From assembly GCF_900142185.1 (NCBI RefSeq), contig NZ_FQZZ01000007.1, positions 62,001 to 126,000 on the forward strand: a DNA stretch of 64,000 nucleotides. Direction: 5' to 3'. This stretch comes from Lutimaribacter pacificus. GTDB taxonomy: Bacteria > Pseudomonadota > Alphaproteobacteria > Rhodobacterales > Rhodobacteraceae. Each line of letters opens with the position of its first letter. The stretch's first letter is position 1. This document shows, piece by piece, positions 1-26,624 of the stretch. Under the pieces are notes generated by a model that saw nothing but the letters and a program-made list of their open reading frames with translations, searched no databases and was not told the origin of the DNA. Made by a program: the position numbers and the translations under genes.

Positions 1-2
1 CC

Positions 3-539: not shown

Positions 540-544
540 AACGC

Positions 545-578
545 TGGCAGCAGCGCCGGACTCAAGGCGCTGCTGCCA
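545..578 (+). terminator. 13-bp stem-loop after the BadH-like gene
   Basis: TGGCAGCAGCGCC (545-557) pairs perfectly with GGCGCTGCTGCCA (566-578) around an 8-base loop. It begins five bases after the stop codon. There is no T run behind it, so it may be an mRNA-stabilising hairpin or a terminator that works with the next hairpin. Confidence 0.6.
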
Positions 579-606
579 TACCGTGCCAAGAGTTACCTCC
601 CCGACT

Positions 607-633
607 GGCCGCGCCTTATGTGCGGCCCTTTTT
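607..633 (+). terminator. Possible Rho-independent terminator
   Basis: GGCCGC (607-612) pairs with GCGGCC (622-627) and is followed by CTTTTT (628-633). It lies between the BadH-like gene and the AMP ligase, just upstream of the ligase ribosome binding site. Confidence 0.5.
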
Positions 634-652
634 CATTCTAGAAAGGTTGCGA

Positions 653-3441: not shown

Positions 3442-4150
3442 CCTGATGGCGGCGCCGCTTTATCTCGAACTGGCGCCGCCTGAGGAAGCGGCCAAACAGA
3501 TCGACCATTTGTTCGTGTTCCGCGATACCGGTGTGCTGAGCGGTGGTGGACGCGGGCGGTTCGCAACCGACCTCTTTACCCTTTCGGTAACGCGCGACGA
3601 CAGCGGCGGCGGGCGCGTATCGCTGGCAGAACCGCGCCCCTATTTTTCGCCCCGCCCAAGGCCATTCCAGGGTGTCGTGGCCGGGCTGCGACTGTCGTCA
3701 CGACCGCAGCGATTTCCCGACTCCAAAGGGCTGGACATGCTGGCCTCAGAACTGGCCCGGATTCAGACCGGGGACGATGACCTGCCTGCGCTCATCGCGG
3801 TGCTTGACGGCCTTGCGAGAGACCTGAGCTTTGCCGCACCAACCGGAGCTTACAGCGACCGGACCAAACGTCGAAAGGTGCGGGCGGAAACCGGCGTGTC
3901 GCGGCGGCGGCTTGCGACCTTGCGACGCTTTCGCCGGGCTCTCGGGCAGCTTGCGTCAAAGACCCTGCCGCTGAGCGATCTGGCGCTGGACGCCGGATAT
4001 TACGATCAATCTCACTTGTCCGCCGCTTGCCGGATCTTCGCCGGCAAACCGCCCGGCGCGTTGCGCGCTCTGTCTATTCCGCGTCGTTTTGACCTTTCGC
4101 TACAAGATACGCGCCTCAAAGACCGCCTAAGATTGGTCATTGACGAATGA
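3425..4150 (+). CDS. AraC-family transcriptional regulator
   Basis: The C-terminal quarter carries an AraC-type DNA-binding domain: LPLSDLALDAGYYDQSHL is the second helix-turn-helix with the familiar GYYDQSH recognition segment, followed by FAGKPPGALR. The N-terminal part (PLYLELAPPEEAAKQIDHLFVFRD) resembles the small effector domain found on many short AraC regulators. The start is uncertain: ATG 3425 lies inside the end of the NmrA-like gene and ATG 3446 just after its stop; TTG 3398 is less likely. A PaaI thioesterase follows 21 bases downstream. Co-transcription with the ligase and NmrA-like gene suggests it controls this small operon. No operator is identifiable. Confidence 0.82.
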   Translation: MLSSSNLMAAPLYLELAPPEEAAKQIDHLFVFRDTGVLSGGGRGRFATDLFTLSVTRDDSGGGRVSLAEPRPYFSPRPRPFQGVVAGLRLSSRPQRFPDSKGLDMLASELARIQTGDDDLPALIAVLDGLARDLSFAAPTGAYSDRTKRRKVRAETGVSRRRLATLRRFRRALGQLASKTLPLSDLALDAGYYDQSHLSAACRIFAGKPPGALRALSIPRRFDLSLQDTRLKDRLRLVIDE

Positions 4151-4171
4151 AATCGAAGAGGAAGACCCGCC

Positions 4172-4627
4172 ATGACACAATTCAAACCGAAAAACCCCGA
4201 CTATGACGCACGCGTGCGCAACAGTTTCGATCGCCAGAAGGTGATGAACACGTTGGGGATCAGCATTGCCGAGTTGTTACCCGGCCGCATCGTTCTGGAA
4301 ATGGCACATCAGGTTGCACTGACCCAGCAGCATGGGTTTTTGCATGCCGGAATCGTGTCGACAGCGCTGGACAGCGCCTGCGGATACGCGGCCTTTTCGC
4401 TGATGCCAGCGGACGCGGCAGTGTTGACGGCCGAATTCAAGATCAACCTACTCAACCCGGCGGACGGCGAACGGTTTCGCTTCGTCGCTGACGTGGTGAA
4501 ACCAGGCAGGACGCTGACCATATGCGAGGCGCGTGCCTATGCCGTGAAGGGCCAGGATGAAAAGCTCGTCGCAACGATGACCGGAACGCTCATGGCGCTG
4601 ATCGGGCGGGCGGGGGTCGCGGACTGA
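4172..4627 (+). CDS. PaaI-family acyl-CoA thioesterase
   Basis: A 151-residue single hotdog domain protein. LTQQHGFLHAGIVSTALDSACGYAA matches the PaaI/YigI active-site region: the HGG-like turn and the helix that carries the catalytic acidic residue (here Asp in ALDSACG). These enzymes release CoA from aromatic or branched acyl-CoAs and so rescue CoA from dead-end thioesters, which fits the catabolic surroundings. GAGGAAG precedes the ATG at a good distance. A diverged copy of its last 26 codons lies at 8981-9061. The gene is last in the 653-4627 operon. Confidence 0.85.
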   Translation: MTQFKPKNPDYDARVRNSFDRQKVMNTLGISIAELLPGRIVLEMAHQVALTQQHGFLHAGIVSTALDSACGYAAFSLMPADAAVLTAEFKINLLNPADGERFRFVADVVKPGRTLTICEARAYAVKGQDEKLVATMTGTLMALIGRAGVAD

Positions 4628-9081: not shown

Positions 9082-10602
9082 TTAATCTGCGAGCCGGGCT
9101 TCGAGGATATGCCGCTGGACCTTTCCGCTGGTCGATCTGGGAAAGTCCTCGAACGCGATGAAGCGAATTTCGCGCGGTCGCTTATAGCCAGCCAGGCTTT
9201 CGCGGCACAAGTTCAGCAGCGCCTCGGCATCCGGCCCGTCATCGTCACAGGCGACAAAGGCCACCGGGCTTTCCCCCCATTTCGCGTCGAAGGCCCTGAC
9301 CACGGCAGCATCGATCACATCGGGATGGGAAAGAAGCACACGTTCGATTTCCGCCGGATAGACGTTTTCACCTCCGGTCTTGATCAGGTATTTCGCCCGA
9401 TCCACAAAGTCGACGGTGCCGTCCGCATTGCGCCGGAACAGATCGCCCATGTGGAAAAAGCCGTTGCGAAAGTCACGGGCATTGGTGTCGTCGGCGTTCC
9501 AGTACCCGGAAAACAGCGTCGAACCCCGAAGCGCCATTTCGCCCGGCGTTCCATCGGGGACTTCGCGGTCGTCGGGATCGACCAGCCGCACCTCGCAAAA
9601 GGCGCTGATGCGCTTGGACAGCCGGTCCGGGGTCACACCCGGCGCGATCAGATCGGCGGTTCCCGGCGGCAGGCCGGTTTCGGTCGCCCCGAAGGAATTC
9701 AGATAGGGCGTGTCCAGAAGACCGGTCAGTTCCGCGATCTGATGCGGCGGCACCAGATCAGCCATTGCGCCGCAAACCTTGATCCCCTTCAGCGGCAAAG
9801 GGTTGGCGTGCCGTTCGTTAATAAAAGCCTCCAGTGCCCCGGGCATCATCACGAACCAGCCGATCCTGTGGCGTGACAGCGCCTCGTTGATGACGGCGGG
9901 CTGCAGCCCGTCCACCATCACCACGGTCCCGCCCCGCAGGATCGTTGCCAGCGCATGATCGGTGGAGGCCATGTGGAACATCGGCGCCCAGGCGATGAAC
10001 CCGTCGCCGGGATCCAGCGCCAGCTGGGCCGCAAAAACCATGGATCGGGCGATATGCGCGCGGTGGCTGATATGCGCCCCCTTGGGCAGGCCCGTGGTCC
10101 CCGAGGTATAGAGGATCGTCAGACCGGCCTCGGGGTCGTCAACCATGGTTCCGGTGCGCGGGTCCGGCTCGACCCCGGCAATGGCCGTTTCCAGGTCTGG
10201 CCCGACGGTTAGACAGGGTGTCGACGCGACGGCGCGGTAAGCTTCTGAAAGTTCCGGTTCGACAACCGCGAGAACCGGCTCGACCAGATCGATGCAGTGC
10301 CGCAGTTCATCGGGGGCAAGCCGCCAGTTCAGACAGGCGACGATCGCGCCGATTCCCGCTGCTGCAAGTTCGACCTCCAGGTATTCTGAGCGGTTATGCG
10401 ACAGGATCGCGATCCTGTCTCCGGGCGCCACGCCTCGTGCCAGAAAGACAGCCGCCAGACGATCGACCCGCTCCAGCAGTTCTGCATAGGTCAGTTTCCT
10501 GCTGCCGTCCTCGATGGCGAGGGCGCGGGCGCAGTCATGTGCGCGGGTTCGAAAGATCGAATACAGATCAGCGCGCCCCGCGCGGATGACGTCGGTCAGC
10601 AT
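9082..10602 (-). CDS. AMP-forming acyl-CoA ligase
   Basis: A 506-residue ANL-family ligase. The phosphate loop LYTSGTTGLPKGA is near residue 165, the adenine-binding SFGATETGLPPG near 305, the hinge MGDLFRRNADGTVDFVDRAKY near 395, and the C-terminal A10 lysine in DFPRSTSGKVQRH near 490, so all catalytic elements are present. It is the second gene of a minus-strand pair with the FadH-like reductase (26 bases apart), whose promoter is shared with the divergent carboxylase operon. It would activate the carboxylic acid fed into that pathway; the acid is unknown. Confidence 0.88.
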   Translation of the reverse strand: MLTDVIRAGRADLYSIFRTRAHDCARALAIEDGSRKLTYAELLERVDRLAAVFLARGVAPGDRIAILSHNRSEYLEVELAAAGIGAIVACLNWRLAPDELRHCIDLVEPVLAVVEPELSEAYRAVASTPCLTVGPDLETAIAGVEPDPRTGTMVDDPEAGLTILYTSGTTGLPKGAHISHRAHIARSMVFAAQLALDPGDGFIAWAPMFHMASTDHALATILRGGTVVMVDGLQPAVINEALSRHRIGWFVMMPGALEAFINERHANPLPLKGIKVCGAMADLVPPHQIAELTGLLDTPYLNSFGATETGLPPGTADLIAPGVTPDRLSKRISAFCEVRLVDPDDREVPDGTPGEMALRGSTLFSGYWNADDTNARDFRNGFFHMGDLFRRNADGTVDFVDRAKYLIKTGGENVYPAEIERVLLSHPDVIDAAVVRAFDAKWGESPVAFVACDDDGPDAEALLNLCRESLAGYKRPREIRFIAFEDFPRSTSGKVQRHILEARLAD

Positions 10603-10628: not shown

Positions 10629-12662
10629 TCAGAGATCCTGCGCCAGGCGCACGCCCTCATCAATGGCGCGCAGCGCATCCAGTTCGGCGGCCTCCTTTGC
10701 CCCGCCGATCATCGTAACCGGGACGCCGCGCGCTACAACCTCTTTGGCCAGGGCTCGTTCCGGTTCCTGACCGGTGCACAGCACAATTGTATCGGCTGCG
10801 ATGACCGTCGGGTTTCCGTCCGCGACGATGTGCAGCCCCGCATCGTCGATATGTTCATAGGTCACCCCGCCCATTGCCTCGACCCCATGTTTGCGCAGCG
10901 CGTTGCGCAGGATCCACCCTGTCGAAACACCAAGCCCCGCGCCCGGTTTAGCGGTCTTGCGCTGCAGCATGACGACCTTGCGGCGCGACGGCTTCGGTGC
11001 CAGAGGGTCGCCCGCCAGGGCACCCGAGGAGACAAATTCGGGGTCCACACCCCAGGTTTCGCAAAAGACGTCGGAATTCGCGGTCTCGGCGGGTTTGGTC
11101 ACTAGGAACTCGGCCACATCATGACCGATGCCCCCCGCCCCCATCACCACGACACGGTCGCCCGCCTCGCGGTCACCGGACAGAATTTCGGCGTAGGTCG
11201 CGACGCTGGGATGGTCGATACCCGGCAGGTCGGGAATGCGCGGCGTGACCCCGGTGGCGATGACCACATGGTCAAATCCCTCAAGATCGCTCGCCTCTGC
11301 CCGCTGTCCCAGACGCTGCGTGACCCCGTGTTTCTGCATCTGACCGGCATAATACCGCAGGGTTTCGTCGAATTCGTCCTTGCCTGGTGCGGCGCGGGCC
11401 AGATTCAGCTGACCGCCCAATTTGTCCTGCGCTTCGAACAGGGTGACATCGTGGCCCAGCCGCGCCGCCTCGGCGGCTGTGGCCATGCCCGCGGCACCAC
11501 CGCCAACGACGGCCACTTTCTTTGGCGTGTCGGTTGGCGTATCCCGGAATTCCGTTTCACGCCCGGCCCTTGGATTGACCAGACATCCGACCGGCCGGTC
11601 CGAAAAAATGAAATCCAGGCAGGCCTGGTTGCAGGCAATGCAGGTGTTGATCTCGTCTGCGCGGCCCTCGCGCGTCTTTTTCACGAAATGCGGATCGGCC
11701 AGAAACGGGCGCGCCATCGAGATCATGTCCGCATCGCCAGAGGCAAGTATGTCTTCTGCAAGCTGGGGTGTGTTGATCCGGTTCGAGGCGACTACCGGGA
11801 TCGACACCGCCGCTTTGACGTTGGCTGCCGCCTTGCGCCAGGCACCGCGCGGCACCGGGTAGGCGATCGTCGGCACGCGGGCCTCATGCCAGCCGATGCC
11901 GGTGTTCAGGATATCCGCACCCGCAGCCTCGATCTTGCGGGCCAGTGCGGCAATTTCATCGGCGGGCGCGCCGCCCTCGACCAGATCGGCCGCCGAAATC
12001 CGGTAGATGACCAGAAAGTCGGGGCCGCAACGTTCGCGCACCGCGCGCACGATCTCGACCGGGAATCGGTGGCGGTTCGCGGCGCTGCCGCCCCAGTCGT
12101 CTTGGCGCTTGTTGGTGTGGGTGACGGTGAATTCGTTGATCAGGTATCCTTCGGACCCCATGATCTCGACGCCATCAAAGCCTGCGGCCTGCGCATTGGC
12201 GGCCGCCACGGCAAAATCCTCGATGGTACGGAGAATGTCGGCTTCGGTCATTTCACGCGGGATGAAACGGTTGATCGGAGCGCGGATCGGCGACGGGGCC
12301 ACACACCCTTCGATCTTGGCATAGCGCCCGGCGTGGAGGAGTTGTGCGCAGATCAGGCTGCCTTCGGCCTGCACCGCCTCGCAGATCGGGCGCAGGTCAA
12401 GCGCTTCTTCCGGGTCATCGATTCTCGGACCTTCTGGATCGAATATGCCCTCGGCATTGGGCGAAAACCCGCCGGTGACCAGAATCGCCGCCTCCCCCCG
12501 CGCACGCTCGGCGTAAAATGCGATCTGTTTGGCTATGCCGTCGGGCTCGGTTTCCAACCGCGTGTGCATCGACCCCATGATGACACGATTTCGCAACGTA
12601 TGCTGGCCTGCGCGGATGGGCGAGAGCATGGTTTCAAAGCTTCCATCTGGTCTATTTTTCAC
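10629..12662 (-). CDS. FadH-like 2,4-dienoyl-CoA reductase / NADH:flavin oxidoreductase
   Basis: A 677-residue modular flavoenzyme. Residues 12-340 form the Old Yellow Enzyme barrel that binds FMN (RNRVIMGSMHT, LICAQLLHAGRYA, MGSEGYLINEF). CIACNQACLD plus a later Cys (VGCLVNP) near 330-350 supply the four ligands for a 4Fe-4S cluster. Residues from about 365 form FAD- and NAD-binding Rossmann domains (KVAVVGGGAAGMATAAEAA). FadH-type enzymes reduce the diene of 2,4-dienoyl-CoAs with NADPH; relatives reduce other enones. GTG 12662 is chosen because GAGGAGGAG lies nine bases upstream, whereas ATG 12629 has no site. It is divergent from the 12.8 kb operon and shares its operator. Confidence 0.85.
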   Translation of the reverse strand: MKNRPDGSFETMLSPIRAGQHTLRNRVIMGSMHTRLETEPDGIAKQIAFYAERARGEAAILVTGGFSPNAEGIFDPEGPRIDDPEEALDLRPICEAVQAEGSLICAQLLHAGRYAKIEGCVAPSPIRAPINRFIPREMTEADILRTIEDFAVAAANAQAAGFDGVEIMGSEGYLINEFTVTHTNKRQDDWGGSAANRHRFPVEIVRAVRERCGPDFLVIYRISAADLVEGGAPADEIAALARKIEAAGADILNTGIGWHEARVPTIAYPVPRGAWRKAAANVKAAVSIPVVASNRINTPQLAEDILASGDADMISMARPFLADPHFVKKTREGRADEINTCIACNQACLDFIFSDRPVGCLVNPRAGRETEFRDTPTDTPKKVAVVGGGAAGMATAAEAARLGHDVTLFEAQDKLGGQLNLARAAPGKDEFDETLRYYAGQMQKHGVTQRLGQRAEASDLEGFDHVVIATGVTPRIPDLPGIDHPSVATYAEILSGDREAGDRVVVMGAGGIGHDVAEFLVTKPAETANSDVFCETWGVDPEFVSSGALAGDPLAPKPSRRKVVMLQRKTAKPGAGLGVSTGWILRNALRKHGVEAMGGVTYEHIDDAGLHIVADGNPTVIAADTIVLCTGQEPERALAKEVVARGVPVTMIGGAKEAAELDALRAIDEGVRLAQDL

Positions 12663-12688: not shown

Positions 12689-12717
12689 TTGATCTACATT
12701 CTAACATTTGTTAGATT
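12689..12717 (+). promoter_or_regulatory. Promoter with palindromic operator CTAACA-TT-TGTTAG
   Basis: A perfect 14-bp palindrome occupies 12701-12714 in the gap between divergent operons. On the plus strand TTGATC (12689) and TAGATT (12712) are 17 bases apart, so the palindrome covers the spacer and the -10. On the minus strand TAGAAT (12703-12698) overlaps the same palindrome. One regulator could therefore shut off both operons. A matching site lies at 25671-25684. Confidence 0.65.
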
Positions 12718-12757: not shown

Positions 12758-13939
12758 ATGCAATTCCAGCCTACAGACGATCAGAAGGCGTTTCGCGAGA
12801 CCGCAAAGCGCTTCGCAACTGAAAGGCTTGCGCCCACATATCAAGAACGCGCCAGCGGCCATACATTCGACCGTGCGCTGATCAAGGAGATGGGCGCACT
12901 GGGGCTGATCGGGGCCGATCTGCCCGAGGAATTCGGGGGACTCGGCGAAAGCTCTGTCACGTCAGGGCTGATCGTCGAAGAGATCGCCTATGCCGATTTC
13001 AACGCAAGTTACGTGCAGCTTCTGGGCTCTCTCATGGGCGGAATGGTTGCCAAACATGCCTCCAAGAACATCGCGTCGGAATGGGTGCCCAAGGTTGTTT
13101 CGGGTGATGCCGTCATTGGTCTGGGCCTGACAGAGCCGCGTGGCGGTTCGGATGCGGCGAACCTGATTCTGAGGGCCGAGAAATCCGGCAACGGCTGGCG
13201 GCTGAACGGTGAAAAGACATCCATGAGTTTTGCCAGTCAGGCGGATGCGGCGGTCGTCTTTGCCCGTACCGGCGATCCTGACGGCGGCTCACGCGGGGTC
13301 AGCGCCTTTTTCGTCGATCTGAACCAGGAAGGCATCAAGCGCACCCATTTTGACGACATCGGCACCAAGCCTGTCGGGCGCGGCTCGGTTTTCTTTGACG
13401 ATGTTTTCGTGCCGGCTGAAAACATGATGGCGGAACAGGACCGTGCTTTTGGCACGATCATGGCGGGCTTCGACTATTCCCGCGCACTGATCGGGCTGGA
13501 GTGCCTGGGGGCCGCGCAAGCGTCGGTGGATGAAACCTGGGCCTACGTTCAGGAGCGCGAGGCATTCGGAGCCCCGATCGTGCAGTATCAGGGTGTCAGC
13601 TTTCCCTTGGCCGAGGCCGAGACCCAACTGACCATGATGCGCCAGCTTTGCTATTACACGCTGGACCTGCGCGACTGTGGCCTGCCCCACACCTCTCAGG
13701 CTGCCATGTGCAAATGGTACCTGCCCAAAACCGCCTGCGAGATCCTGCACCAGTGCCTGATCCTGCACGGACATTACGGCTACACCACCGACCTGCCCCA
13801 CCACCAGCGTTACAACGACGTTCTCGGCCTTCAGATCGGCGACGGCACCGCGCAGATTCAGAAGCTGGTGATCGCCCGCGAGAAGGTCGGTCGCATGGCG
13901 CTGCAGTATGACAAGAAGGCGAAGGGAGCCTCGAAATGA
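12758..13939 (+). CDS. Acyl-CoA dehydrogenase, Asp variant
   Basis: First gene of the 12.8-25.6 kb operon. A 393-residue FAD enzyme with the usual three domains: N-terminal helices (1-115), middle beta domain with GLGLTEPRGGSD near 125 and the ENMMAEQDRAFG segment near 225, and C-terminal helices ending HHQRYNDVLG then GDGTAQIQKLVIAR. The catalytic Glu of the family normally sits in a YEGT-like motif; here it is Asp 362 (GDGT). I recall a similar GDGT ending in cyclohexanecarboxyl-CoA dehydrogenases, but have not searched. ATG 12758 has GGGGAGGAG upstream; the frame is open further upstream but only across the promoter. It overlaps the crotonase start by four bases. Confidence 0.87.
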   Translation: MQFQPTDDQKAFRETAKRFATERLAPTYQERASGHTFDRALIKEMGALGLIGADLPEEFGGLGESSVTSGLIVEEIAYADFNASYVQLLGSLMGGMVAKHASKNIASEWVPKVVSGDAVIGLGLTEPRGGSDAANLILRAEKSGNGWRLNGEKTSMSFASQADAAVVFARTGDPDGGSRGVSAFFVDLNQEGIKRTHFDDIGTKPVGRGSVFFDDVFVPAENMMAEQDRAFGTIMAGFDYSRALIGLECLGAAQASVDETWAYVQEREAFGAPIVQYQGVSFPLAEAETQLTMMRQLCYYTLDLRDCGLPHTSQAAMCKWYLPKTACEILHQCLILHGHYGYTTDLPHHQRYNDVLGLQIGDGTAQIQKLVIAREKVGRMALQYDKKAKGASK

Positions 13940-14715
13940 GCGACCCCATCCTCGTCACTTCCGAGGGCAACACCGGCATCATCGAACTGGCCCGCCCCGA
14001 GAAATTCAATTGCCTATCACTTGAGGTGCATGAGCGTATTTCTGTCGCGCGTGCGGAATTCGAGGCGAACCCCGCTATTCGGGCGATCCTCATCCGGGCG
14101 CAGGGCAAGCACTTTTGCACCGGTGCCGATCTGGTGGAAGTGAAAGGTAAATTGAACGATCCCGCCGCGCTGGACCATTTCATCGCCTTTGGCATGAACA
14201 ACCTGCGTGCGCTTGAAACCTCCTCCCTCCCTGTCGTGGTGGCAGTGCAGGGGTTGTGTCTGGCCGGCGGGATCGAACTGATGCTGGCATGCGATGTGTG
14301 TTTCGCGGCCGAAAGCGCCCAGTTTGGCGATCAGCACGCGCAATTCGGGCTGATTCCCGGTTGGGGTGGCTCGCAGCGGTTGACACGGTTGATGGGGCAG
14401 CGCAGGGCGCTCGACCTGATGTTCTCGGCCCGCTGGCTCAAGTCGGACGAGGCCAAAGAGGCCGGATTGGTCAACTACATCGTGCCGGATGCGGACCTGC
14501 ACAAGTCTGCGCTGGAATACTGCGAGAAAATCGCCACCCGTTCACGTCCCGGCATCGCCGAGATGAAGCGGTTGGCGCGCGAAGGCGCGGACCTTGGTAT
14601 CGACCAGCAGATGCGGCTTGAGCGCGATGCCGCCGTGCGCGCACTGCCCAGCGATGACGTGGCGGAGGGCCTCGATGCATTCGAGAACCGGCGCGCCCCC
14701 GAATTCAAGGCTTGA
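13936..14715 (+). CDS. Crotonase-fold protein (enoyl-CoA hydratase/isomerase family) without the Glu pair
   Basis: A 259-residue crotonase. The oxyanion-hole segments are present: GKHFCTGADL near residue 59 and GLCLAGGIEL near 108. In classical enoyl-CoA hydratase two Glu residues activate water; by alignment to the GQPEILLG and AMEMVLTG motifs, the first is His 134 here (GDQHAQFG) and the second is Asp (ALDLMFSAR). It may be a hydratase on an unusual enoyl-CoA, such as the carboxylated product of the biotin enzyme in this operon, or an isomerase, hydrolase or decarboxylase. It overlaps the preceding dehydrogenase (ATGA), and the next gene starts nine bases on. Confidence 0.85.
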   Translation: MSDPILVTSEGNTGIIELARPEKFNCLSLEVHERISVARAEFEANPAIRAILIRAQGKHFCTGADLVEVKGKLNDPAALDHFIAFGMNNLRALETSSLPVVVAVQGLCLAGGIELMLACDVCFAAESAQFGDQHAQFGLIPGWGGSQRLTRLMGQRRALDLMFSARWLKSDEAKEAGLVNYIVPDADLHKSALEYCEKIATRSRPGIAEMKRLAREGADLGIDQQMRLERDAAVRALPSDDVAEGLDAFENRRAPEFKA

Positions 14716-14724
14716 GGACGAAAC

Positions 14725-15885
14725 ATGGATTTCATTTTGAACGACGAACAACGCCAGATTTACGACTATGGCGGCCAGCTGGCGCAGAAGTTCGACAACG
14801 ATTACTGGCTGAGACACGCACGCAAGCACGAGTTTCCGCACGAAATGTTCCGCCAGATCGCCGATGACGGCTTCCTCGGCATCATGGTGCCCGAGGAATA
14901 TGGCGGCGCGGGCCTTGGTATGACCGAAATGGCCCTGTTCATGGAGGGCACCGCCAATCACGGCATTCCGCTTTTGATGATGGTGGTCGGGCCGACCATG
15001 TCGCTGGCCCATATCGCCAGCCACGGAAGCGAGTTCCACAAGAAAGAACTGCTGCCGGCTGCCTGCCGCGGTGATATCCAGTTCTGTTTCGCGATCACTG
15101 AACCGGGGGCCGGGTCGAACACGATGAAGGCCACTACGCTGGCCAAGCGTCGAGGCAACCGGTTCAGCCTGTCGGGCGAAAAGACCTTCATCACCGGGGC
15201 CGAAGTGGCCGACTACTGCCTCGTGGTGGCGCGGACCAAACCGCATACCGAGGTCAGCCGCAAGACCGACGGCTTTACCCTGTTCGCCGTGGATCTGAAG
15301 AAAAAAGGCGTCGACAAGCAGCGGGTGAAGATCTCGATCCCCCTGCCCGAGGAGCAGTGGACACTGTTCTTCGACGATGTGGATCTCGGCCCCGAGGATG
15401 TGGTCGGCGAGGTGGACGAAGGGTTCTCGATCCTGTTCGACAGCCTCAACCCCGAGCGTATCATCCTGGCCGCCTTGTGCTGCGGCATCGGCCGGTTCGC
15501 CCTGAACAAGGGCGTGGCCTATGCCTCCGAGCGCAATGTGTTCGGCCAACCCATCGGTGCGCACCAGGGCGTGCAGCACCCGATGGCCAAGGCGCACACA
15601 GCGGTCGAGATGGCCAGCCTGATGACCCGGCGCGCGGCATGGGAGTTCGACAACAAGCTGCCTGCCGGTGCGTCGTCGAACATGGCGAAATATGCCGCCG
15701 CCGAAGCCGGGATCGAAGCGGTCGACGCGGCGCTTCAGGCGCATGGTGGATCGGGCTTTACCGAAGATACGGGGCTTTATGAGATGTACCCGCTGGTCCG
15801 CCTGCTGCGCACAGCGCCGGTGAACCGCGAACTGTGCCTGAGCTTTATCGGCGAAAAGGTCATGGGGCTGCCACGATCCTATTGA
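14725..15885 (+). CDS. Acyl-CoA dehydrogenase lacking the usual catalytic Glu
   Basis: A 386-residue acyl-CoA dehydrogenase. FAD- and substrate-binding parts are normal: YGGAGLGMTEMALFMEG near 55, FAITEPGAGSNTMKA near 122, and GEKTFITGAEVADY near 150. The C-terminus ends LLRTAPVNRELCLSFIGEKV then MGLPRSY. This differs from the YEGTxxIQ signature that carries the catalytic Glu, and is shared with the dehydrogenases at 23614 and 38059, so the base must lie elsewhere. Its substrate is one intermediate of the operon's pathway. GAGGACGAAAC gives a ribosome site ahead of ATG 14725. Confidence 0.87.
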   Translation: MDFILNDEQRQIYDYGGQLAQKFDNDYWLRHARKHEFPHEMFRQIADDGFLGIMVPEEYGGAGLGMTEMALFMEGTANHGIPLLMMVVGPTMSLAHIASHGSEFHKKELLPAACRGDIQFCFAITEPGAGSNTMKATTLAKRRGNRFSLSGEKTFITGAEVADYCLVVARTKPHTEVSRKTDGFTLFAVDLKKKGVDKQRVKISIPLPEEQWTLFFDDVDLGPEDVVGEVDEGFSILFDSLNPERIILAALCCGIGRFALNKGVAYASERNVFGQPIGAHQGVQHPMAKAHTAVEMASLMTRRAAWEFDNKLPAGASSNMAKYAAAEAGIEAVDAALQAHGGSGFTEDTGLYEMYPLVRLLRTAPVNRELCLSFIGEKVMGLPRSY

Positions 15886-15912
15886 TCGCCACGGCTTGGA
15901 ACGGAGAACGAC

Positions 15913-17304
15913 ATGCAATTTGGAATGCGCTTCCGGCGGGAAGATGCCGCCGACAAGGTAAATGATCGCTTCTGGCACGCGATCGAGGGCACGCCGCTCG
16001 ACGAGGTGCGCCGTATTCAGGAAGAGCGGCTGCGCGATCAGATGGCCTATCTCAAGGCAAACTCGACTTTCTATCAGGAGAAGTTCGCGAAAGCCGGTGT
16101 GGAATTCGACGATATCCGCACCATCGAAGACCTCCAGAAACTGCCCTATACCTACAAGACCGAGATCCGCGAAAGCCTGGCCGCCGAACCGCCGTTCGGC
16201 AAACACCGGGCCGCGCCGATGGCCGATATCATCCAGATGCAGGCCTCGTCCGGCACCACCGGAAGCCCGTCTTACGTGGCGCTGACCGAAGCCGATACCG
16301 AGATGTGGCACGAGATGACGGCGCGCTGTTTCTTTGCCAATGGCGTGCGGTCCGGCGATATGGTGCTGCATGCGTTTTCGCTGGCCAAGGGTTTTGTCGG
16401 CGGCATTCCGGTGATGCAGGGGTTGCAGTACATGGGCGCAATCGACGTGCCTGTGGGGGCGGATGGTGGCGTGGAACGGCTGCTGCGCGCCTGCGCCGAC
16501 ACGCGCCCGCGTTGCATCGTCGGCGCGCCGAATTTCGTGCTGCACCTGGCTGACAAAGCGCCCGAAGTGCTCGGCTGCAAAGCCAGTGAACTGGGCGTCG
16601 AACAGATCATCGTCGGTGGCGAACCCGGCGGCGGCATTCCCGCCATCCGGGCCAAGATCGAAGCGGCCTGGGGCGCGAAATGCTGTGAGATGCTGGGCGG
16701 CACCGATCTGGGTGTGACCTATTGGGCTGAATGCGATGCCCAGTCGGGGATGCATATGGTCAACATGGACTACATCATTACCGAATTGCTCGACCCCGAA
16801 AGCGGAGAAATCATCCCTTGGGAAAAGGGTGCCGAGGGCGAGATGATCTATACCGCGCTCGGCCGTCGGGCGAGCCCGCTCGTGCGATTCCGGTCGGGCG
16901 ATTACATCGAGGTTCTCGACACCGACTGCACCTGCGGGCGCACCGGGCCCAAGATCCGCTGCACCGGCCGGACCGACGACATGCTGATCGTGCGCGGGGC
17001 CAATGTCTTTCCCTCGGCCATCAACAGCGTGATCACCGAGATGGTGCCGGAGACCAACGGCGTCATGCGCATCGTGGCCGATTTCGAGGGTCACACCACG
17101 CAGGGCGCGCTGACGGTGATCGTCGAACGCGGTCCCGACCGCGACGCCGCGGATGACCAGGCGCTCAAGAAGAAAATCGAGCAGCGCCTGCGCGATGCCC
17201 TTGTCTTCAAGGCCGACGTTCACCTTGTCGCGCCCGACACCTTTGAGAAACCCGGTGCCGCCAAGGTCGCCTTCGTTCTGAGAGAATATCCGGACCTGCC
17301 ATGA
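15913..17304 (+). CDS. PaaK-like AMP-forming aryl/acyl-CoA ligase
   Basis: A 463-residue member of the phenylacetate-CoA ligase branch of the ANL family. The phosphate loop QASSGTTGSPSYV lies near residue 113, then a family-typical LGGTDLGVTYWAECDAQSG near 262 and a hinge CTGRTDDMLIVRGANVFPS near 355. A cysteine cluster, LDTDCTCGRTGPKI, near 340 recalls the zinc-binding loop of this branch. Such ligases often act on aromatic or cyclic acids, so this enzyme hints at a ring-containing or bulky substrate; that is an inference. GGAGAACGAC precedes ATG 15913 and the stop overlaps the carboxyltransferase start. Confidence 0.87.
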   Translation: MQFGMRFRREDAADKVNDRFWHAIEGTPLDEVRRIQEERLRDQMAYLKANSTFYQEKFAKAGVEFDDIRTIEDLQKLPYTYKTEIRESLAAEPPFGKHRAAPMADIIQMQASSGTTGSPSYVALTEADTEMWHEMTARCFFANGVRSGDMVLHAFSLAKGFVGGIPVMQGLQYMGAIDVPVGADGGVERLLRACADTRPRCIVGAPNFVLHLADKAPEVLGCKASELGVEQIIVGGEPGGGIPAIRAKIEAAWGAKCCEMLGGTDLGVTYWAECDAQSGMHMVNMDYIITELLDPESGEIIPWEKGAEGEMIYTALGRRASPLVRFRSGDYIEVLDTDCTCGRTGPKIRCTGRTDDMLIVRGANVFPSAINSVITEMVPETNGVMRIVADFEGHTTQGALTVIVERGPDRDAADDQALKKKIEQRLRDALVFKADVHLVAPDTFEKPGAAKVAFVLREYPDLP

Positions 17305-18908
17305 CAAGAATGAAATCCCTTCTCGACACCGGGTCCGACGACTTCCGCGCCAACGACGTGTCTTACCGCGAAAAGGTCGATGAACTACATGCCCTCCGGC
17401 TCAAACAGCGCGTCGGCGGCCCCGAAAAGGCGCGCAAACGTCATGTGGACAAAGGCAAAATCCTGCCGCGCGAAAGAATTGAAAGGCTGATCGACCCGGG
17501 TACACCATTCCTGGAACTCGGCGAGCTGGCCGGGTTGAACAAATATGAAGGCGTGCCACCGGGCGCGGGCATCATCACGGGCATCGGTGTGATCGAAGGC
17601 CGTCAGTGCATGATCATCGCCAATGATGCCACCGTAAAGGGCGGCACCTATTTCGGCATGACTTCCCGCAAGCATGTGCGCGCCCAGAAGATCGCATGGA
17701 AGAACCGTCTGCCCGTCATCACCCTCGTGGATTCCGGCGGTGCCTTCCTGCCGGATCAGGAAAACATCTTTCCTGACGAAGGCCAGTTCGGGTCCATCTT
17801 TCACCAACAGATCGGCATGTCGGGCGATGGTGTGCCGCAAATCGCCGTGGTCATGGGGCCCTGCACCGCGGGTGGCGCATATATTCCCGCGCTCTGTGAC
17901 GAAGTGGTGATCGTGCGCGGTCAGGGCTTTATGTATCTGGGCGGACCGGAATTGACCTTTGCCGCAACCGGCGAAAAGGTCGAAGCCGAAGAACTGGGTG
18001 GCGGCAAGATGCATTCGTCGGTGTCGGGCGTGACCGACCATCTGGCCGAGGATGACGCCCACGCCCTGGCCATCACCCGCGAGATCGTCAGCCATCTGGG
18101 CGAAAAGCCCCGGCCCCGCAAGACGCCCGCCGCGCCGCGCCCGCCGGCCTATCCGGTCGAGGAAATCTACGGCATTGTCAGCCGCGATCCCAGGGTGCCG
18201 ACAGACAACCGCGAGATCGTCGCGCGGCTGGTGGACGGCAGCGATTTTCACGAATTCAAGCCGCTTTATGGCGACACGATCATGACCGGCTGGGGGCGCA
18301 TCCACGGCCACGAGGTCGGGATCATCGCCAATACAGGCGTGCTTTTCGTCGAAGCCGCGCTGAAGGCGACGCATTTCATCAATCTCTGCGTCCAGCGTGA
18401 TATTCCGCTGCTGTTCCTGGCCGATGTGAACGGCTTCATGGTGGGCCGCGAGGTCGAGCAGATGGGCATTGCCAAGGCCGGTGCTAAAATGATCACGGCC
18501 ATGTCTTCGGCCCGGGTGCCGAAATTCACAATCATCACCGGTGGCTCTTACGGCGCGGGATACCTGGCGATGCTGGGCCGCCCGTTCCAGCCGGACGCAA
18601 TGTTCGCCTGGCCGACGGGACGGTCGGCAATCATGGGGCCGGAACAGGCCGCCAGCGTGCTGGCTCAGGTCCGCGCGCAGATCAACGAACGCGAAGGCAA
18701 AAGCTGGACCCCCGAGGAGGAGGAAGCCTTCAAGGCACCGATCCGCAAGGAATACGAAGATTTTCAGGGGGCCTATAATTTTGCTTCCAACCTTTGGATC
18801 GACAGCGTGATCGAGCCCTGTGAGACCCGTGACGTCATGGCGCTGATGCTGGATGTAACATCGCGCAGACCCAAGGTCGAAACCAACTTCGGCGTGTTCA
18901 GGATGTGA
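17301..18908 (+). CDS. Biotin-dependent acyl-CoA carboxylase, carboxyltransferase subunit (MCC/GCC type)
   Basis: Transfers CO2 from carboxybiotin to an acyl-CoA. The 535-residue length with fused N- and C-terminal crotonase-like halves, and stretches such as VVMGPCTAGGAYIPALCDEVVIV, GGGKMHSSVSGVTDHLAEDD and FLADVNGFMVG, match the beta subunits of 3-methylcrotonyl-CoA and geranyl-CoA carboxylases (LiuB, AtuC). Those enzymes carboxylate the gamma carbon of a 3-methyl-2-enoyl-CoA. The biotin carboxylase follows 10 bases downstream and an HMG-CoA-lyase homologue after that, the same gene logic as liu and atu clusters. Whether the substrate is methylcrotonyl-like or larger cannot be told. Confidence 0.9.
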   Translation: MTRMKSLLDTGSDDFRANDVSYREKVDELHALRLKQRVGGPEKARKRHVDKGKILPRERIERLIDPGTPFLELGELAGLNKYEGVPPGAGIITGIGVIEGRQCMIIANDATVKGGTYFGMTSRKHVRAQKIAWKNRLPVITLVDSGGAFLPDQENIFPDEGQFGSIFHQQIGMSGDGVPQIAVVMGPCTAGGAYIPALCDEVVIVRGQGFMYLGGPELTFAATGEKVEAEELGGGKMHSSVSGVTDHLAEDDAHALAITREIVSHLGEKPRPRKTPAAPRPPAYPVEEIYGIVSRDPRVPTDNREIVARLVDGSDFHEFKPLYGDTIMTGWGRIHGHEVGIIANTGVLFVEAALKATHFINLCVQRDIPLLFLADVNGFMVGREVEQMGIAKAGAKMITAMSSARVPKFTIITGGSYGAGYLAMLGRPFQPDAMFAWPTGRSAIMGPEQAASVLAQVRAQINEREGKSWTPEEEEAFKAPIRKEYEDFQGAYNFASNLWIDSVIEPCETRDVMALMLDVTSRRPKVETNFGVFRM

Positions 18909-18918
18909 GGAGCGAACC

Positions 18919-20925
18919 GTGAAAATCAAGACGCTTCTGATCGCCAACCGCGGCGAAATTGCCTGCCGGATCGCGCGCACTGCGCGGGCAAGCGGTATCA
19001 TTCCCGTCGGCGTGCATTCGCAGGCCGACGTCAATGCCCTGCATGTCCGCGAGATTGGCAAATCTGTCTGTATCGGCGCCGGACCTGCATCCCAGAGCTA
19101 TCTGAAAATCGACGCGGTGATTGCCGCTGCGCAATCAGTGGGCGCGGATGCGATCCATCCCGGTTATGGCTTTCTGGCCGAAAACCCCGATTTTGCTCGT
19201 TCGGTCGAAGCCGCCGGCATGATCTTCATGGGGCCGACGCCGGAAACGCTTGAACGTTTCGGCGACAAGGCCAGCGCCAAAGAGGCCGCCGTGGCGGCCA
19301 GCGTCCCGGTGATTTCGGGCGCCGAAGGTGCGCGGTCCGATCCCGAGCAGATTGCCGAGGAGGTGCGCCAAATGGGCCTGCCGGTGCTGCTCAAGGCGGT
19401 CGGCGGCGGTGGTGGGCGCGGACAACGGCTCGTCACTGACGAGACCACGCTGGTCGAGGACATCGAAGGCGCGCTGCGCGAAGCAAAATCCACCTTCGGC
19501 TCCGAAGGGCTGCTGTTGGAGCGTTTCCTGCCCGAGGCGCGCCATGTTGAAGTGCAGATCGCAGGTGACGGCAAGGGCCATGTGGTGCATCTGTTCGAAC
19601 GCGATTGCACGCTTCAGCGCCGCCACCAGAAGGTCATCGAGGAAGCCCCGGCCTGGGGTCTGCCCCGAACGCTTCTGGACGACATCGCACGCGACGCGGT
19701 GCGCTTGGGCGAAACGCTGGACTATCGCGGGCTGGGCACGGTCGAATTTCTGGTCGCGGGTGGCGAGTATTTCTTCCTTGAGGTGAACCCGCGCATTCAG
19801 GTGGAACATCCCGTCACCGAAGCGATCACCGGGCTGGACCTTGTCGCGCTTCACCTGCGGATTGCCGAAGGCGCGGGCCTTGGACTGGTGCAGGACGATC
19901 TGACGATCAACGGCCACGCGGTCGAGGCGCGGCTTTACGCCGAAGATCCGGCGATGCAATTCGCCCCGTCGACGGGCACGCTCTCCACGCTCAGCCTGCC
20001 ATCGGGCCTGCGCATCGACAGCGGCGTCGAAGAAGGCGATGCCGTCACGCCCTACTACGACCCGATGATCGCCAAGCTGATCGTGCACGCGCCCGACCGG
20101 GAAACCGCATTGGCACGTCTAGCCACGGCGCTTGATCATGTCGCGGTCGAAGGTGTCGAAACCAATCGCGCCTTTCTGACGGCGCTGGCGCGAAACCATG
20201 AATTCGAACGGATGCAGGTGCATACCCGCTGGATCGACGGCAGGCTGGATGAGCTGACACAGGCACCCGGCCTGACCCGCCCAGATCTGTGGAAGGCGAC
20301 CGCTGCCATTCTCTTCGTGACCCAGTCGCGCAGCGACACAGACGCCAATCCCTGGACCAACCGTGATGCCTTTACCGGCTGGCGGCTTGGACTGGGCGGC
20401 GATGCGATTGAAGCGGGGCAGCGCGTGACGCTTACCGATTCTGACGAGGTATCCGAAGAACTGCGCGTCAGTCCTGTCAAACCGGGTGCCAAGTACACCA
20501 TCCGTTCGGAGAAAGGCGAGGCGCTGATACTGTCGGCACGTGAACTGACCCCGGGCCGTTGGCGTGTCGGCGAAGGCGACACCGTCCATCTGATCGACGC
20601 GCGCCTGCACGCGGGCGTGATCGAACTGGATACGCCCGAAGGCCGCCTGGTCTTTCGGCCCGCCGCGCCCCTTGCCTTTGCCGGCGGCGATGCCGCGGCG
20701 GATCGCGCCGTGACCTCTCCGCTGACCGGCATGATTGTCGAAATCAAGGTCTCCGACGGTCAGAGCGTGGCCGAAGGCGACGTGGTCGCGGTCATGGAAT
20801 CCATGAAACTCGAAATCTCGATCCGGGCGGCCGCGGCCGGGATCGCCAGCAATATATCCGTCTCGAATGGGGACATGGTCGATCGCGGCCAGGTCATCGC
20901 CGAGATCCTGCCATCCGAGGAGTGA
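18919..20925 (+). CDS. Acyl-CoA carboxylase alpha subunit (biotin carboxylase plus biotin carrier)
   Basis: A 668-residue protein. Residues 1-450 are the biotin carboxylase: LIANRGEIACRI at the N-terminus, the ATP-grasp glycine loop VGGGGGRGQRLV near 155, and FLEVNPRIQVEHPVTEAITG near 290 with its catalytic Glu/Arg. A linker of about 130 residues leads to a C-terminal biotinyl domain with AVMESMKLE; Lys 630 is the biotin site. With the 17301 subunit it forms an MCC- or GCC-type carboxylase that uses ATP and bicarbonate. The start is a GTG preceded by GGAGCGAACC. The stop is followed by the HMG-CoA-lyase homologue after four bases. Confidence 0.92.
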   Translation: MKIKTLLIANRGEIACRIARTARASGIIPVGVHSQADVNALHVREIGKSVCIGAGPASQSYLKIDAVIAAAQSVGADAIHPGYGFLAENPDFARSVEAAGMIFMGPTPETLERFGDKASAKEAAVAASVPVISGAEGARSDPEQIAEEVRQMGLPVLLKAVGGGGGRGQRLVTDETTLVEDIEGALREAKSTFGSEGLLLERFLPEARHVEVQIAGDGKGHVVHLFERDCTLQRRHQKVIEEAPAWGLPRTLLDDIARDAVRLGETLDYRGLGTVEFLVAGGEYFFLEVNPRIQVEHPVTEAITGLDLVALHLRIAEGAGLGLVQDDLTINGHAVEARLYAEDPAMQFAPSTGTLSTLSLPSGLRIDSGVEEGDAVTPYYDPMIAKLIVHAPDRETALARLATALDHVAVEGVETNRAFLTALARNHEFERMQVHTRWIDGRLDELTQAPGLTRPDLWKATAAILFVTQSRSDTDANPWTNRDAFTGWRLGLGGDAIEAGQRVTLTDSDEVSEELRVSPVKPGAKYTIRSEKGEALILSARELTPGRWRVGEGDTVHLIDARLHAGVIELDTPEGRLVFRPAAPLAFAGGDAAADRAVTSPLTGMIVEIKVSDGQSVAEGDVVAVMESMKLEISIRAAAAGIASNISVSNGDMVDRGQVIAEILPSEE

Positions 20926-20929
20926 TGAA

Positions 20930-21889
20930 ATGAGCGACTTTCCCAAATTCGTAGAATTTCGTGAAGAAGGCCCGCGTGAGGGTTTTCAGATCGAAAAGAA
21001 GATTTACCCGATCGAAGAGCGGATCGAACTGATCGACATGCTCAGCGAAACCGGCTTGAAACGCATTCAGGTCGGCAGCTTTGTCAGCCCGAAATACGTT
21101 CCTCAGATGGCGGACACCGGCGAGTTGTTCCAGCGTATCAAGCGCAAACCGGGCGTGAACTACACATCGCTGTGGCTGAACGACAAAGGGTTTCGCAAGG
21201 CCCTGACCGCGCATGAGGTCGATATCGACCCGCGTCTGCTGTTCTATCCTTCCGAAGCATTCGCCCAATCGAACAACAATTGTTCCTCGGCCGAGATGCG
21301 GGAAAAACAACGTGACTGGGTCCGTCTTTACAAGGAAGAGGGATATACCGTCGACGCGGCCTATGTGATGACCGCTTTCGGCTGCAACCTCGAGGGCCCC
21401 ATCCCCCAAGAACGCATCTTGGACGATTTCCGCTTTATCCTTCAGCTATGCGAAGAAGAGAACATCCCCGTGCCGATCCTCGTGGTCGCCGACACCATGG
21501 GTTGGGGAAACCCCGAGGCGGTCAAACGGATGATCGGCGCCCTGCGCGAATTGGCGCCCGAGGCGCGCATCGGTATGCACATCCATGACACACGTGGGCT
21601 GGGGATCGCCAACGTTTATGCGGCCCTGTCGATGGGCGTGGACATGTTCGAAAGCTCCGTCGCCGGTCTTGGCGGCTGTCCTTTCGCGGGCCACGGCCAC
21701 GCGCGCGCCGCAGGAAATGTCTGCACCGAGGATGCAGTGTTCCTGTGTCACGAGCTCGGCATCGAAACCGGCATTGATCTGGACAAGCTGATCGCAGCGG
21801 CGGTCAAAGCAGAAGAGATCATCGGTGTGCCGCTCATGGGCCGGGTCATGCACACCGGCGGGTTGGACAAATACCGCAAGTCACGCTGA
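20930..21889 (+). CDS. HMG-CoA-lyase-like enzyme with Asp-to-Glu in the active site
   Basis: A 319-residue TIM-barrel protein of the HMG-CoA lyase/DRE-TIM family, which cleaves a 3-hydroxy-3-methyl acyl-CoA by retro-aldol reaction. The metal ligands HIHDT and the flexible-loop Cys in GLGGCPFAG are present. The family signature GPRDGLQ reads GPREGFQ here, so the catalytic and metal-binding Asp is Glu 17 (Arg 16 is kept). The Cys loop is longer than usual (GHGHARAAGN). It would logically split the hydrated product of the carboxylase; the changes suggest a substrate other than HMG-CoA. ATG 20930 lies four bases after the carboxylase stop. Confidence 0.84.
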   Translation: MSDFPKFVEFREEGPREGFQIEKKIYPIEERIELIDMLSETGLKRIQVGSFVSPKYVPQMADTGELFQRIKRKPGVNYTSLWLNDKGFRKALTAHEVDIDPRLLFYPSEAFAQSNNNCSSAEMREKQRDWVRLYKEEGYTVDAAYVMTAFGCNLEGPIPQERILDDFRFILQLCEEENIPVPILVVADTMGWGNPEAVKRMIGALRELAPEARIGMHIHDTRGLGIANVYAALSMGVDMFESSVAGLGGCPFAGHGHARAAGNVCTEDAVFLCHELGIETGIDLDKLIAAAVKAEEIIGVPLMGRVMHTGGLDKYRKSR

Positions 21890-21901
21890 GGGAGCAAGAA
21901 G

Positions 21902-22816
21902 ATGACAAAAGCACTTGACGGAAAGGTCGTTCTGGTCACCGGGGCCGGCGGTGGGATCGGGCGTGATATCGCCTTGATGGCAGCTACCGAAGGCGCCGCC
22001 GTGGTGGTCAATGATCTGGGCGCATCCCTGAAAGGCACCGGTCAGACAGAAACTGCGGCGCAGAAAGTCGTCGAAGAGATCAGGGCCGCTGGGGGCGATG
22101 CCATTGCCGATGGCGGCTCTGTCACCGATCCCGATGCCGCGCGCGCGATGATCGAAGCCGGGGTCAAGGAATTCGGTCGCATCGACGCGGTGGTAAACAA
22201 CGCCGGCATTCTGCGCGACGGTTACTTCCACAAGATGACCTATGAGGATTTCGACGCGGTGGTGAAGGTCCATCTTTATGGTGCCTTCAATACCAGCCGC
22301 GCGGCCGCCGACTATTTCCGCGAACAGGAAAGCGGCGCGCTCGTGCACATGACCTCGACCTCGGGGCTGATCGGCAATCTGGCGCAGGCGAATTATTCGG
22401 CGGCAAAGCTGGGCATCGCGGCCTTCTCGAAATCGGTAGCGCTCGACCTGAAACGCTGGAACGTGCGGTCAAACTGCATCGCGCCCTTCGCCTGGAGCCG
22501 GATGATATCGTCGATCAAGACCGACACGGAGGAACAGAAGGCGCGGGTCGAGAAGGTCAAGAAGATGACCCCCGCCAAGGTCGCGCCGATGGCCTGTTAC
22601 CTGATGAGCGACCGCGCGGCGGATGTGTCGGGGCAAATCTTTGCAGTGCGGATGAACGAGATATTCCTGTTCAACCAGCCCCGCCCGCTCCGGTCCGTCC
22701 ACTCCGGTGACGGCTGGACCGCCGATGAAATCGCCGAGCGCGCCATTCCCGCGCTCAAATCGCAATTCACACCGCTCGAAGTTTCGGCGGATGTCTTTTC
22801 GTGGGATCCGGTCTAA
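21902..22816 (+). CDS. SDR dehydrogenase of the MFE-2 (3-hydroxyacyl-CoA) type
   Basis: A 304-residue SDR, longer than the usual 250. It has VVLVTGAGGGIGRDIAL (NAD-binding, residues 9-25), NNAGILRDG near 100, catalytic Tyr 165 and Lys 169 in YSAAK, and SNCIAPFAWSRM. The insertion and the NDLGA segment near residue 38 are typical of peroxisomal multifunctional enzyme 2 and its bacterial relatives, which oxidise (3R)-hydroxyacyl-CoAs with NAD. Its stop overlaps the start of the citryl-CoA-lyase homologue (TAATG), indicating tight coupling. A dehydrogenase next to a C-C lyase suggests it makes the ketone substrate that the lyase splits. Confidence 0.86.
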   Translation: MTKALDGKVVLVTGAGGGIGRDIALMAATEGAAVVVNDLGASLKGTGQTETAAQKVVEEIRAAGGDAIADGGSVTDPDAARAMIEAGVKEFGRIDAVVNNAGILRDGYFHKMTYEDFDAVVKVHLYGAFNTSRAAADYFREQESGALVHMTSTSGLIGNLAQANYSAAKLGIAAFSKSVALDLKRWNVRSNCIAPFAWSRMISSIKTDTEEQKARVEKVKKMTPAKVAPMACYLMSDRAADVSGQIFAVRMNEIFLFNQPRPLRSVHSGDGWTADEIAERAIPALKSQFTPLEVSADVFSWDPV

Positions 22817-23610: not shown

Positions 23611-23613
23611 CCG

Positions 23614-24777: not shown

Positions 24778-24788
24778 AGGCCAGGATT

Positions 24789-25657: not shown

Positions 25658-25687
25658 TTGACCAATTTTTCTAACATCTGTTAGGCT
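25658..25687 (+). promoter_or_regulatory. Promoter with palindromic operator CTAACA-TC-TGTTAG
   Basis: The palindrome at 25671-25684 has the same half-sites as that at 12701-12714. TTGACC (25658) and TAGGCT (25682) are 18 bases apart, so again the operator fills the spacer and overlaps the -10. It lies upstream of the 30-codon leader and the ABC transporter operon. Confidence 0.65.
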
Positions 25688-25751: not shown

Positions 25752-25844
25752 ATGCGAGGAAAACTCGTAACCAACGGAAAACCGTGCGGTCAGGCTATGC
25801 GTGCCTCCATGAGGTGTTGGGGAAAAGCACGGGTTGTAACATGA
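25752..25844 (+). CDS. 30-codon leader reading frame ahead of livG
   Basis: ATG 25752 is preceded by GGGAGGAGGAAC, the best ribosome binding site in this leader, and the frame (MRGKLVTNGKPCGQAMRASM and ten more residues) ends at TGA 25842-25844, overlapping the livG ATG (25841). livG itself has no good ribosome site. The peptide is basic and cysteine-bearing with no recognisable domain. The arrangement suggests translational coupling of livG to the leader; the peptide may have no function of its own. Expression is unproven. Confidence 0.45.
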   Translation: MRGKLVTNGKPCGQAMRASMRCWGKARVVT

Positions 25845-26620: not shown

Positions 26621-26624
26621 CGGC

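Follow-up and report, generated by a model that had tools for sequence, protein, structure and literature searches.

What reads the palindrome CTAACA-N2-TGTTAG, which stands in two promoter regions of the same contig of Lutimaribacter pacificus, and which genes would it bring under common control? The DNA analyzed here is a stretch of 64 kb (the window), corresponding to bases 62001-126000 of contig C7; this contig is 207 kb long and represents 4.7% of the 4.42 Mb genome. On the evidence described below, we consider it very probable that the palindrome is the operator of a plasmid-borne catabolic regulon and that the regulator is a double TetR protein acting as a pseudo-dimer repressor. The genes concerned appear to serve the degradation of fat- or terpene-like acids in many marine bacteria.

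The palindrome and its neighboring units in the window

The window contains exactly two copies of CTAACA-N2-TGTTAG and no further match at up to two mismatches. An earlier note on this DNA had reported the same palindrome in two promoters, one between divergent operons and one before a transporter. Both 14-mers are indeed exact, at 12701 and 25671, and the gene layout agrees with this placement. Candidate operator 1 (CTAACATTTGTTAG, 12701-12714) lies between two divergent units while candidate operator 2 (CTAACATCTGTTAG, 25671-25684) lies ahead of an ABC uptake operon. The sequences flanking the two operators are unrelated to each other. Among the 38 distinct perfect 6-N2-6 palindromes of the window only two recur, this one and one with the left arm GCCGCC.

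Gene identities were taken from the annotation of an identical plasmid region, and upstream distances were computed. On the minus strand, the unit to the left of operator 1 begins with a gene for a 2,4-dienoyl-CoA reductase or OYE-family enzyme (10629-12629; plasmid annotation, the nearest NCBIfam models scoring below their cut-offs) and includes an AMP-binding acyl-CoA ligase (9082-10602, minus strand; plasmid annotation and NCBIfam). On the plus strand, an acyl-CoA dehydrogenase gene (12758-13939) opens the right operon; its nearest model is the cyclohexanecarboxyl-CoA dehydrogenase TIGR03207, at 521.9 bits and below the cut-off of 575.35. The remainder of this operon (13936-25628, plus strand) encodes an enoyl-CoA hydratase, an acyl-CoA dehydrogenase, a ligase, a carboxyltransferase (17301-18908, plus strand), a biotin carboxylase (18919-20925, plus strand), an HMG-CoA-lyase-like protein, an SDR, a citryl-CoA-lyase-like protein, a further acyl-CoA dehydrogenase and a MaoC-type protein. 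The ABC uptake operon behind operator 2 (25841-33505, plus strand) comprises an ATPase, a ligase, two permeases, a binding protein, a second ATPase and an SDR. A third unit with a candidate operator enters the window from the left (1-4627, plus strand; SDR, ligase, SDR, an HTH_18 or AraC-type protein and a PaaI thioesterase), and its operator (C7 61697-61710) is found some 290-300 bp left of the window.

The interval between operator 2 and the ABC ATPase gene also holds an open frame of 30 codons (25752-25844), which has a strong ribosome site. The stop of this frame overlaps the ATPase start (ATGA), and the frame is 30 codons long in all five orthologous promoters. Differences are spread evenly over codon positions 1, 2 and 3 (121, 116 and 131, respectively), so that the length and the coupling of the frame, rather than the peptide, seem to be kept.

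On the plus strand, each palindrome overlaps a promoter-like sequence that we read from the DNA. At operator 1 (12689-12717), TTGATC (12689-12694) is separated by 17 nt from TAGATT (12712-12717) and points toward the dehydrogenase operon; at operator 2 (25658-25687), TTGACC (25658-25663) is separated by 18 nt from TAGGCT (25682-25687), and a TGTTGA is identical in all five aligned promoters. A consensus scan found a divergent promoter-like sequence on the minus strand, TTTCCA-18-TAGAAT with a TG before the second hexamer (12727-12698), which takes in operator 1 and is directed toward the reductase and ligase genes. The two plus-strand promoters are middling consensus matches and this mechanical scan listed neither of them. 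The proposal that the palindrome sits in the spacer and -10 of TTGA(T/C)C promoters is borne out by the geometry and by the spacing statistics given below, but a strict scan would retain the divergent promoter only. As the palindrome lies in the core promoter, a protein bound to it would block RNA polymerase.

Distribution and conservation of the sites

In a search of the whole genome the exact 14-mer was found five times, always on C7 (at 61697, at 74701 and 87671, which are window positions 12701 and 25671, and at 172283 and 175944), rather than in many scattered places, while a reversed control pattern gave no exact copy. At up to two mismatches there were 22 genomic places, 13 of them on C7, compared to 55 for the control pattern. 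All three one-mismatch copies but only five of the 14 two-mismatch copies lie on C7; given the control count, two-mismatch copies as such represent background.

The 13 candidate operators on C7 span approximately 146 kb, and most of them show an extended palindrome of about AATCTAACA-NN-TGTTAGATT. Apart from operator 2, they are found before the single TetR gene described below; twice between a lipid-transfer/thiolase gene and a hexapeptide transferase gene; before a divergent pair formed by an enoyl-CoA hydratase/AtuA/carboxylase unit and an acyl-CoA dehydrogenase unit; before the double TetR gene and the divergent SDR unit (window 1-4627); before the reductase/ligase unit and the dehydrogenase-carboxylase operon (operator 1); and before an IclR-type regulator, a CoA-transferase and acetate-CoA-ligase-like unit, a transglutaminase/MaoC unit, OB-fold/thiolase and CaiB units, an acyl-CoA dehydrogenase, and a second ABC/ligase operon with an SDR at its head. 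The AtuA of this cluster is a strong Pfam match (479 bits). Judged from its annotation, the gene set looks like one for the CoA-dependent breakdown of branched, isoprenoid or alicyclic carboxylic acids, and the substrate of the regulon is probably a branched or isoprenoid acid. The earlier suggestion that ligase, reductase, carboxylase operon and ABC uptake form one regulon is thus indicated by the genome-wide count, by conservation and by the adjoining TetR genes, although the regulon would be far larger than two promoters.

To assess conservation we compared C7 with seven orthologous contigs of other genomes (933 kb in total), setting aside matches below 60% identity as paralogues. In all, 34 exact, 26 one-mismatch and 13 two-mismatch sites lie on these eight contigs, whereas three first-order Markov simulations averaged 0, 0.33 and 4.7, respectively. 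Operator 1 is exact at the same promoter in all seven other contigs, where it forms a conserved island in the alignment. Operator 2 is kept in each of the four other contigs with an ABC ATPase orthologue of at least 60% identity (two exact, two with one mismatch); the other three have no such orthologue. The alignments show conservation in both arms but variation at the two central bases and in a large part of the flanks, and over all 73 sites the centre bases are near random, with a T before and an A after the arms in 84%. Conserved arms around a drifting centre are, at the level of sequence, the mark of a protein footprint.

A few sites are weak or missing: that of ACAD_55 in G386 (a 60% match, five mismatches) and that of ACAD_179 in G361 (three mismatches) and in G220 (a partial match, five mismatches). 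CaiB_172, a gene internal to an operon, has no site in any of the five contigs that hold it, our own included, as expected of a place that is not a promoter.

Two of the C7 sites deviate in one arm. The deviation CTAACATGTGTTTG (C7 55263-55276) is kept at the same dehydrogenase in six of the seven other contigs, and CTACCATTTGTTAG (C7 48063-48076) is kept at the hexapeptide/lipid-transfer promoter in four of them. The deviations themselves are kept, as if the two arms were read differently. Elsewhere, the 14-mer core with a TTGATC -35 precedes an OB-fold gene (DUF35-like, by eye) on another contig of G361 (L207, G361:C12:91014), and this is probably a further member of the regulon.

The double TetR gene and rival explanations

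The earlier note had found no regulator gene evident in the window and had judged the site to be TetR-type. The family assignment stands and the candidate gene lies just outside the window, but it encodes a double and not an ordinary TetR. The gene (C7 60286-61650, minus strand, 454 aa) starts 351 bp left of the window and has an exact copy of the palindrome 46 bp upstream. Scanning the genome for TetR_N yielded 21 matches, of which the best and the fourth best fall in this one frame while the second best is a single TetR. The two TetR_N units score 74.6 and 65.8 bits (cut-off 24) and are also recognized by Pfam, which in addition finds TetR_C_24, an all-helical ligand/dimer domain, in two stretches of the protein.

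We then asked how closely gene and site occur together in a sample of 390 genomes of one order, Rhodobacterales (judged by named relatives). The double TetR occurs in 15 of the 390, and in all 15 a site with at most one mismatch lies upstream of it. At least three exact sites are present in 13 of these 15 genomes; G184 has one and G204 none, with 12 and 10 one-mismatch sites, respectively, among the matches listed. Of the 375 genomes without the double TetR, on the other hand, 32 have one exact site and a single genome, G257, has more than one. It carries four exact sites, and six at up to one mismatch, though neither TetR matched there. Its best matches to AtuA and to the lipid-transfer protein have 42% and 73% identity, and the left part of the cluster, with both TetRs, AtuA and the lipid-transfer gene, is absent as a unit from the draft assembly, which may reflect an assembly gap or a deletion. 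G257 is the one result against a strict coupling of site and double TetR.

When an alignment of nine double TetRs was used to search more widely, 226 relatives were found in named genomes; the best 80 were kept, and these range from Roseobacter-group genera to Mesorhizobium, Enterovirga, Acidocella and Bradyrhizobium. For 79 of these loci upstream DNA was available, and 77 have a site with up to two mismatches in the scanned interval (46 exact, 25 with one and six with two mismatches); L167 has a one-mismatch site just beyond that interval, bringing the total to 78 of 79, although the loci are related and the counts overstate the number of independent events. The sole exception is L193, a relative from Acidocella with 58% identity, which has no upstream site; the most diverged proteins still accompanied by one have 52% identity. 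An upstream site at nearly every double TetR locus is the coupling that an autoregulated repressor gives.

We also examined the surroundings of 13 of the 32 single exact sites and of two further copies (G361 and G386). In six of the 13 (L204, L205, L206, L208, L209 and L218, at about position 1000) the site has the form CTAACATATGTTAG and lies upstream of a different chromosomal TetR (YHHGDLRAQL... type). Of the 32 single-site genomes, at least 18 have this form as their one exact site. The remaining seven single copies (L210-L216) have surroundings that are not obviously regulatory. Single copies upstream of another TetR imply that the 14-mer core alone is not fully specific, and this core, set in other flanks, seems to serve a second TetR group as well.

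Compared to the double TetR as regulator, four other explanations were considered. The best of them involves the single TetR of the same plasmid cluster (C7 45158-45787, 209 aa), which has a one-mismatch site 27 bp upstream of its gene and, like both halves of the double TetR, consists of TetR_N and TetR_C_24. It could be that both TetRs bind one family of sites with different preferences, the double TetR acting on AATCTAACA..TGTTAGATT and the single TetR on its own operator, in a two-repressor network like that of KstR and KstR2. We regard this as a possibility to be taken seriously, if not the leading one, and it is compatible with the best explanation. The helix-turn-helix units are alike (27-29 of 47 identities), and the flanks of the single TetR operator, of the type ctaaCTAAC....GTTAGgt, resemble each other among loci and are unlike those of other sites; the site is exact in four of the six contigs holding the gene. 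However, some genomes that have sites carry a diverged single TetR or none. In G361 its matches (E of 1e-15 or better) are the halves of the double TetR only, while the sites are kept on the contig fetched, and in G215 there is only a 54% relative, on another contig.

Alternatively, the single TetR might be the master regulator, as an ordinary homodimer, with the double TetR as its target or modulator. Its place in the cluster, its domains and an upstream site in all seven loci first fetched (two exact, four with one mismatch and one with two) would suit this role, but we consider it unlikely as G361 retains its sites with no match to the single TetR beyond the halves of the double one. Moreover, three genomes that lack the double TetR but have relatives of the single one (G103, 55%; G176, 50%; G067, 48%) contain no exact site, an argument that is weak since these relatives may be paralogues. 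Judging from these distributions, we favor the double TetR over the single TetR as master regulator, with the single TetR as its likely partner.

A third explanation does without a regulator: the palindrome would be a bidirectional promoter and nothing else, each arm serving as a TGnTAGAnT extended -10 whose conservation is driven by RNA polymerase. At 52 of the 73 sites in the eight related contigs a TTG precedes the TAG by 16-18 nt in one orientation or both, compared to 272 of 2920 (9%) displaced controls judged in the same way, although the 73 sites belong to related plasmids and do not count as independent events. The minus-strand consensus promoter at operator 1 also fits. At 25671, however, both arms are kept even though only one gene direction is served, and TAGGCT makes a poor forward -10. 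In addition, the exact genomic copies number only five, all on the contig of this regulon, and the occurrence of the site tracks the double TetR gene, so this explanation is very improbable. Finally, that the two window copies arose by chance or were spread by a mobile repeat is hardly credible: at least two window copies at up to two mismatches did appear in 4 of 100 shuffles, but only 0.00015 exact copies are expected per 64-kb window (first-order Markov model), the flanks are unrelated, and the genome-wide count, the excess over the Markov simulations and the conservation at orthologous places rule it out.

Predicted fold, proposed mechanism and related systems

Returning to the double TetR as the regulator, we modeled its structure with AlphaFold2, using as input the L124 protein, which is 100% identical to that of the window genome, and 34 relatives. 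The model has a mean pLDDT of 83.6 and a pTM of 0.81; both TetR units are confident and are joined by a short loose stretch (224-229). The top Foldseek match was Mce3R (9b7y; E 1.1e-9 over 421 columns) while the next 49 of the best 50 rows covered at most 204 columns. VIA-align 2 likewise aligned Mce3R with Z 27.5 over 361 residues (4.4 A, 17% identity), compared to Z of at most 18.7 and at most 193 residues for the other 49 of its best 50 rows; among these, only 3nnr (184 residues) spans both halves and the rest cover one. Within the best 50 rows of either program, Mce3R alone matches the chain in its full extent. As modeled, one chain probably makes a whole TetR-like pseudo-dimer in which the halves, M1 and M2, are paired.

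The two halves are 41% identical, belong to the same C-terminal Pfam family, and agree at 29 of 47 positions in their TetR_N units. Their recognition helices are GIEAGSIYYHF (M1) and DMKAGSVYYHF (M2). Such alike halves, with nearly the same recognition helix, fit a palindromic operator. The AGS(I/V)YYHF helix is, however, common in TetR proteins, and the likeness of M1 and M2 is thus weak evidence for a symmetric reading. The structural neighbors of the single halves include FadR and AibR, which were solved with acyl-CoAs, and on the strength of the model an acyl-CoA ligand is plausible.

Mce3R of Mycobacterium tuberculosis is described as the first double TetR with a solved structure (PDB 9b7y) and as a member of an infrequent subfamily, with 204 double TetRs predicted in Actinomycetes; it is autoregulated and tied to lipid metabolism genes (PMC11667970). 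Like Mce3R, our protein has two complete TetR units in one chain and a predicted intramolecular M1-M2 fold. In contrast to the 25-bp asymmetric, nonpalindromic sites of Mce3R, whose halves belong to distinct TetR subgroups (PMC11667970), the candidate operator here is palindromic, with at most two changes in those 78 of 79 loci, and the two halves both carry TetR_C_24. Set against Mce3R and its asymmetric operator, this proteobacterial double TetR and its palindromic candidate site offer a comparison that would show what purpose the fusion of two TetR units serves.

The KstR/KstR2 regulons of mycobacteria are similar in layout: a 14-bp TetR palindrome is scattered over the regulator's own promoter and other lipid-catabolic promoters, and the KstR palindrome overlaps the -10 (PMC1995591, PMC3068626). 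The same arrangement, at the promoter of the regulator and at catabolic promoters, is found here. KstR, however, is an ordinary dimer of single units, and the KstR and KstR2 palindromes are TAGAAC-N2-GTTCTA and AnCAAGnnCTTGnT (PMC1995591, PMC3068626), whereas our candidate is a double TetR with CTAACA-N2-TGTTAG; the KstR form has no match in the window at up to two mismatches. AtuR of Pseudomonas, a TetR repressor of acyclic terpene utilization with the operator AGCAAGCGCTTGG (cited in PMC9973270), controls an atu-type cluster; AtuA and carboxylases lie behind one of the sites here, where they may belong to a similar pathway. AtuR differs in its operator and in its size, which is that of a single unit; its close homologue RdmA has 206 aa (PMC9973270). 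Neither AGCAAGCGCTTGG nor CCAAGCGCTTGCT has a match at up to two mismatches in the window or in L008. Not found in the window at this stringency, the AtuR and KstR operators were rejected as the identity of the palindrome. LiuQ and FadP, whose motifs were also considered, are reported to be unique to betaproteobacteria among the classes studied (PMC5343134). Engineered single-chain Tet transregulators, in which two TetR units are joined and fold intramolecularly (PMC1797012), are man-made, while the double TetR here is a natural fusion with diverged halves.

Taking the double TetR as repressor, we infer the following mechanism. The chain would fold back on itself and pair M1 with M2 as a pseudo-dimer; its two recognition helices, which are almost alike, would each read one CTAACA arm. 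Without substrate, the bound protein would cover the spacer and -10 of promoters on one or both strands and would repress its own gene, the neighboring SDR unit, the reductase/ligase unit, the carboxylase operon, the ABC uptake operon and further plasmid operons. The substrate, probably a branched or isoprenoid carboxylic acid, would be converted to an acyl-CoA after uptake, and binding of this acyl-CoA to the C-terminal domains would then cause release. This would be an ordinary kind of mechanism, that of a TetR-type regulon like KstR's, and it is the putative regulator that is unusual, being a plasmid-borne double TetR with a palindromic candidate operator in many genera. We found no account of this regulon or operator in the literature searched, most subscription papers being outside it.

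It could further be speculated that the protein is a natural single-chain, pseudo-symmetric TetR 'heterodimer' with two different ligand pockets, which combines two acyl-CoA signals at one palindromic operator and controls a transferable regulon of at least 13 operators. We hold this extension to be rather doubtful. If the two-pocket reading were true, the kept one-arm variants, such as CTAACATGTGTTTG at C7 55263, would mark which half sits where.

A defined regulon would travel on plasmids among Roseobacter-group bacteria, and its operator and candidate regulator would offer a handle on the catabolic island. Plasmid unnamed5 of Sulfitobacter alexandrii AM1-D1 (NZ_CP018081.1) matches the 5-30 kb part of the window without a difference over 24,901 bases, and 30 plasmid records contain a place that by itself covers 80% or more of this part. 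In Shimia biformata (L138, G148:C10:2609001-2610353) the double TetR gene lies on a contig of 3.1 Mb, so the island may be chromosomal in this species though it is plasmid-borne elsewhere. When viral contigs were scanned with the 20-mer form, 11 contigs matched. In Sulfitobacter sp. CW3 (L195), a frame for another TetR unit follows the double TetR gene, after position 4250.
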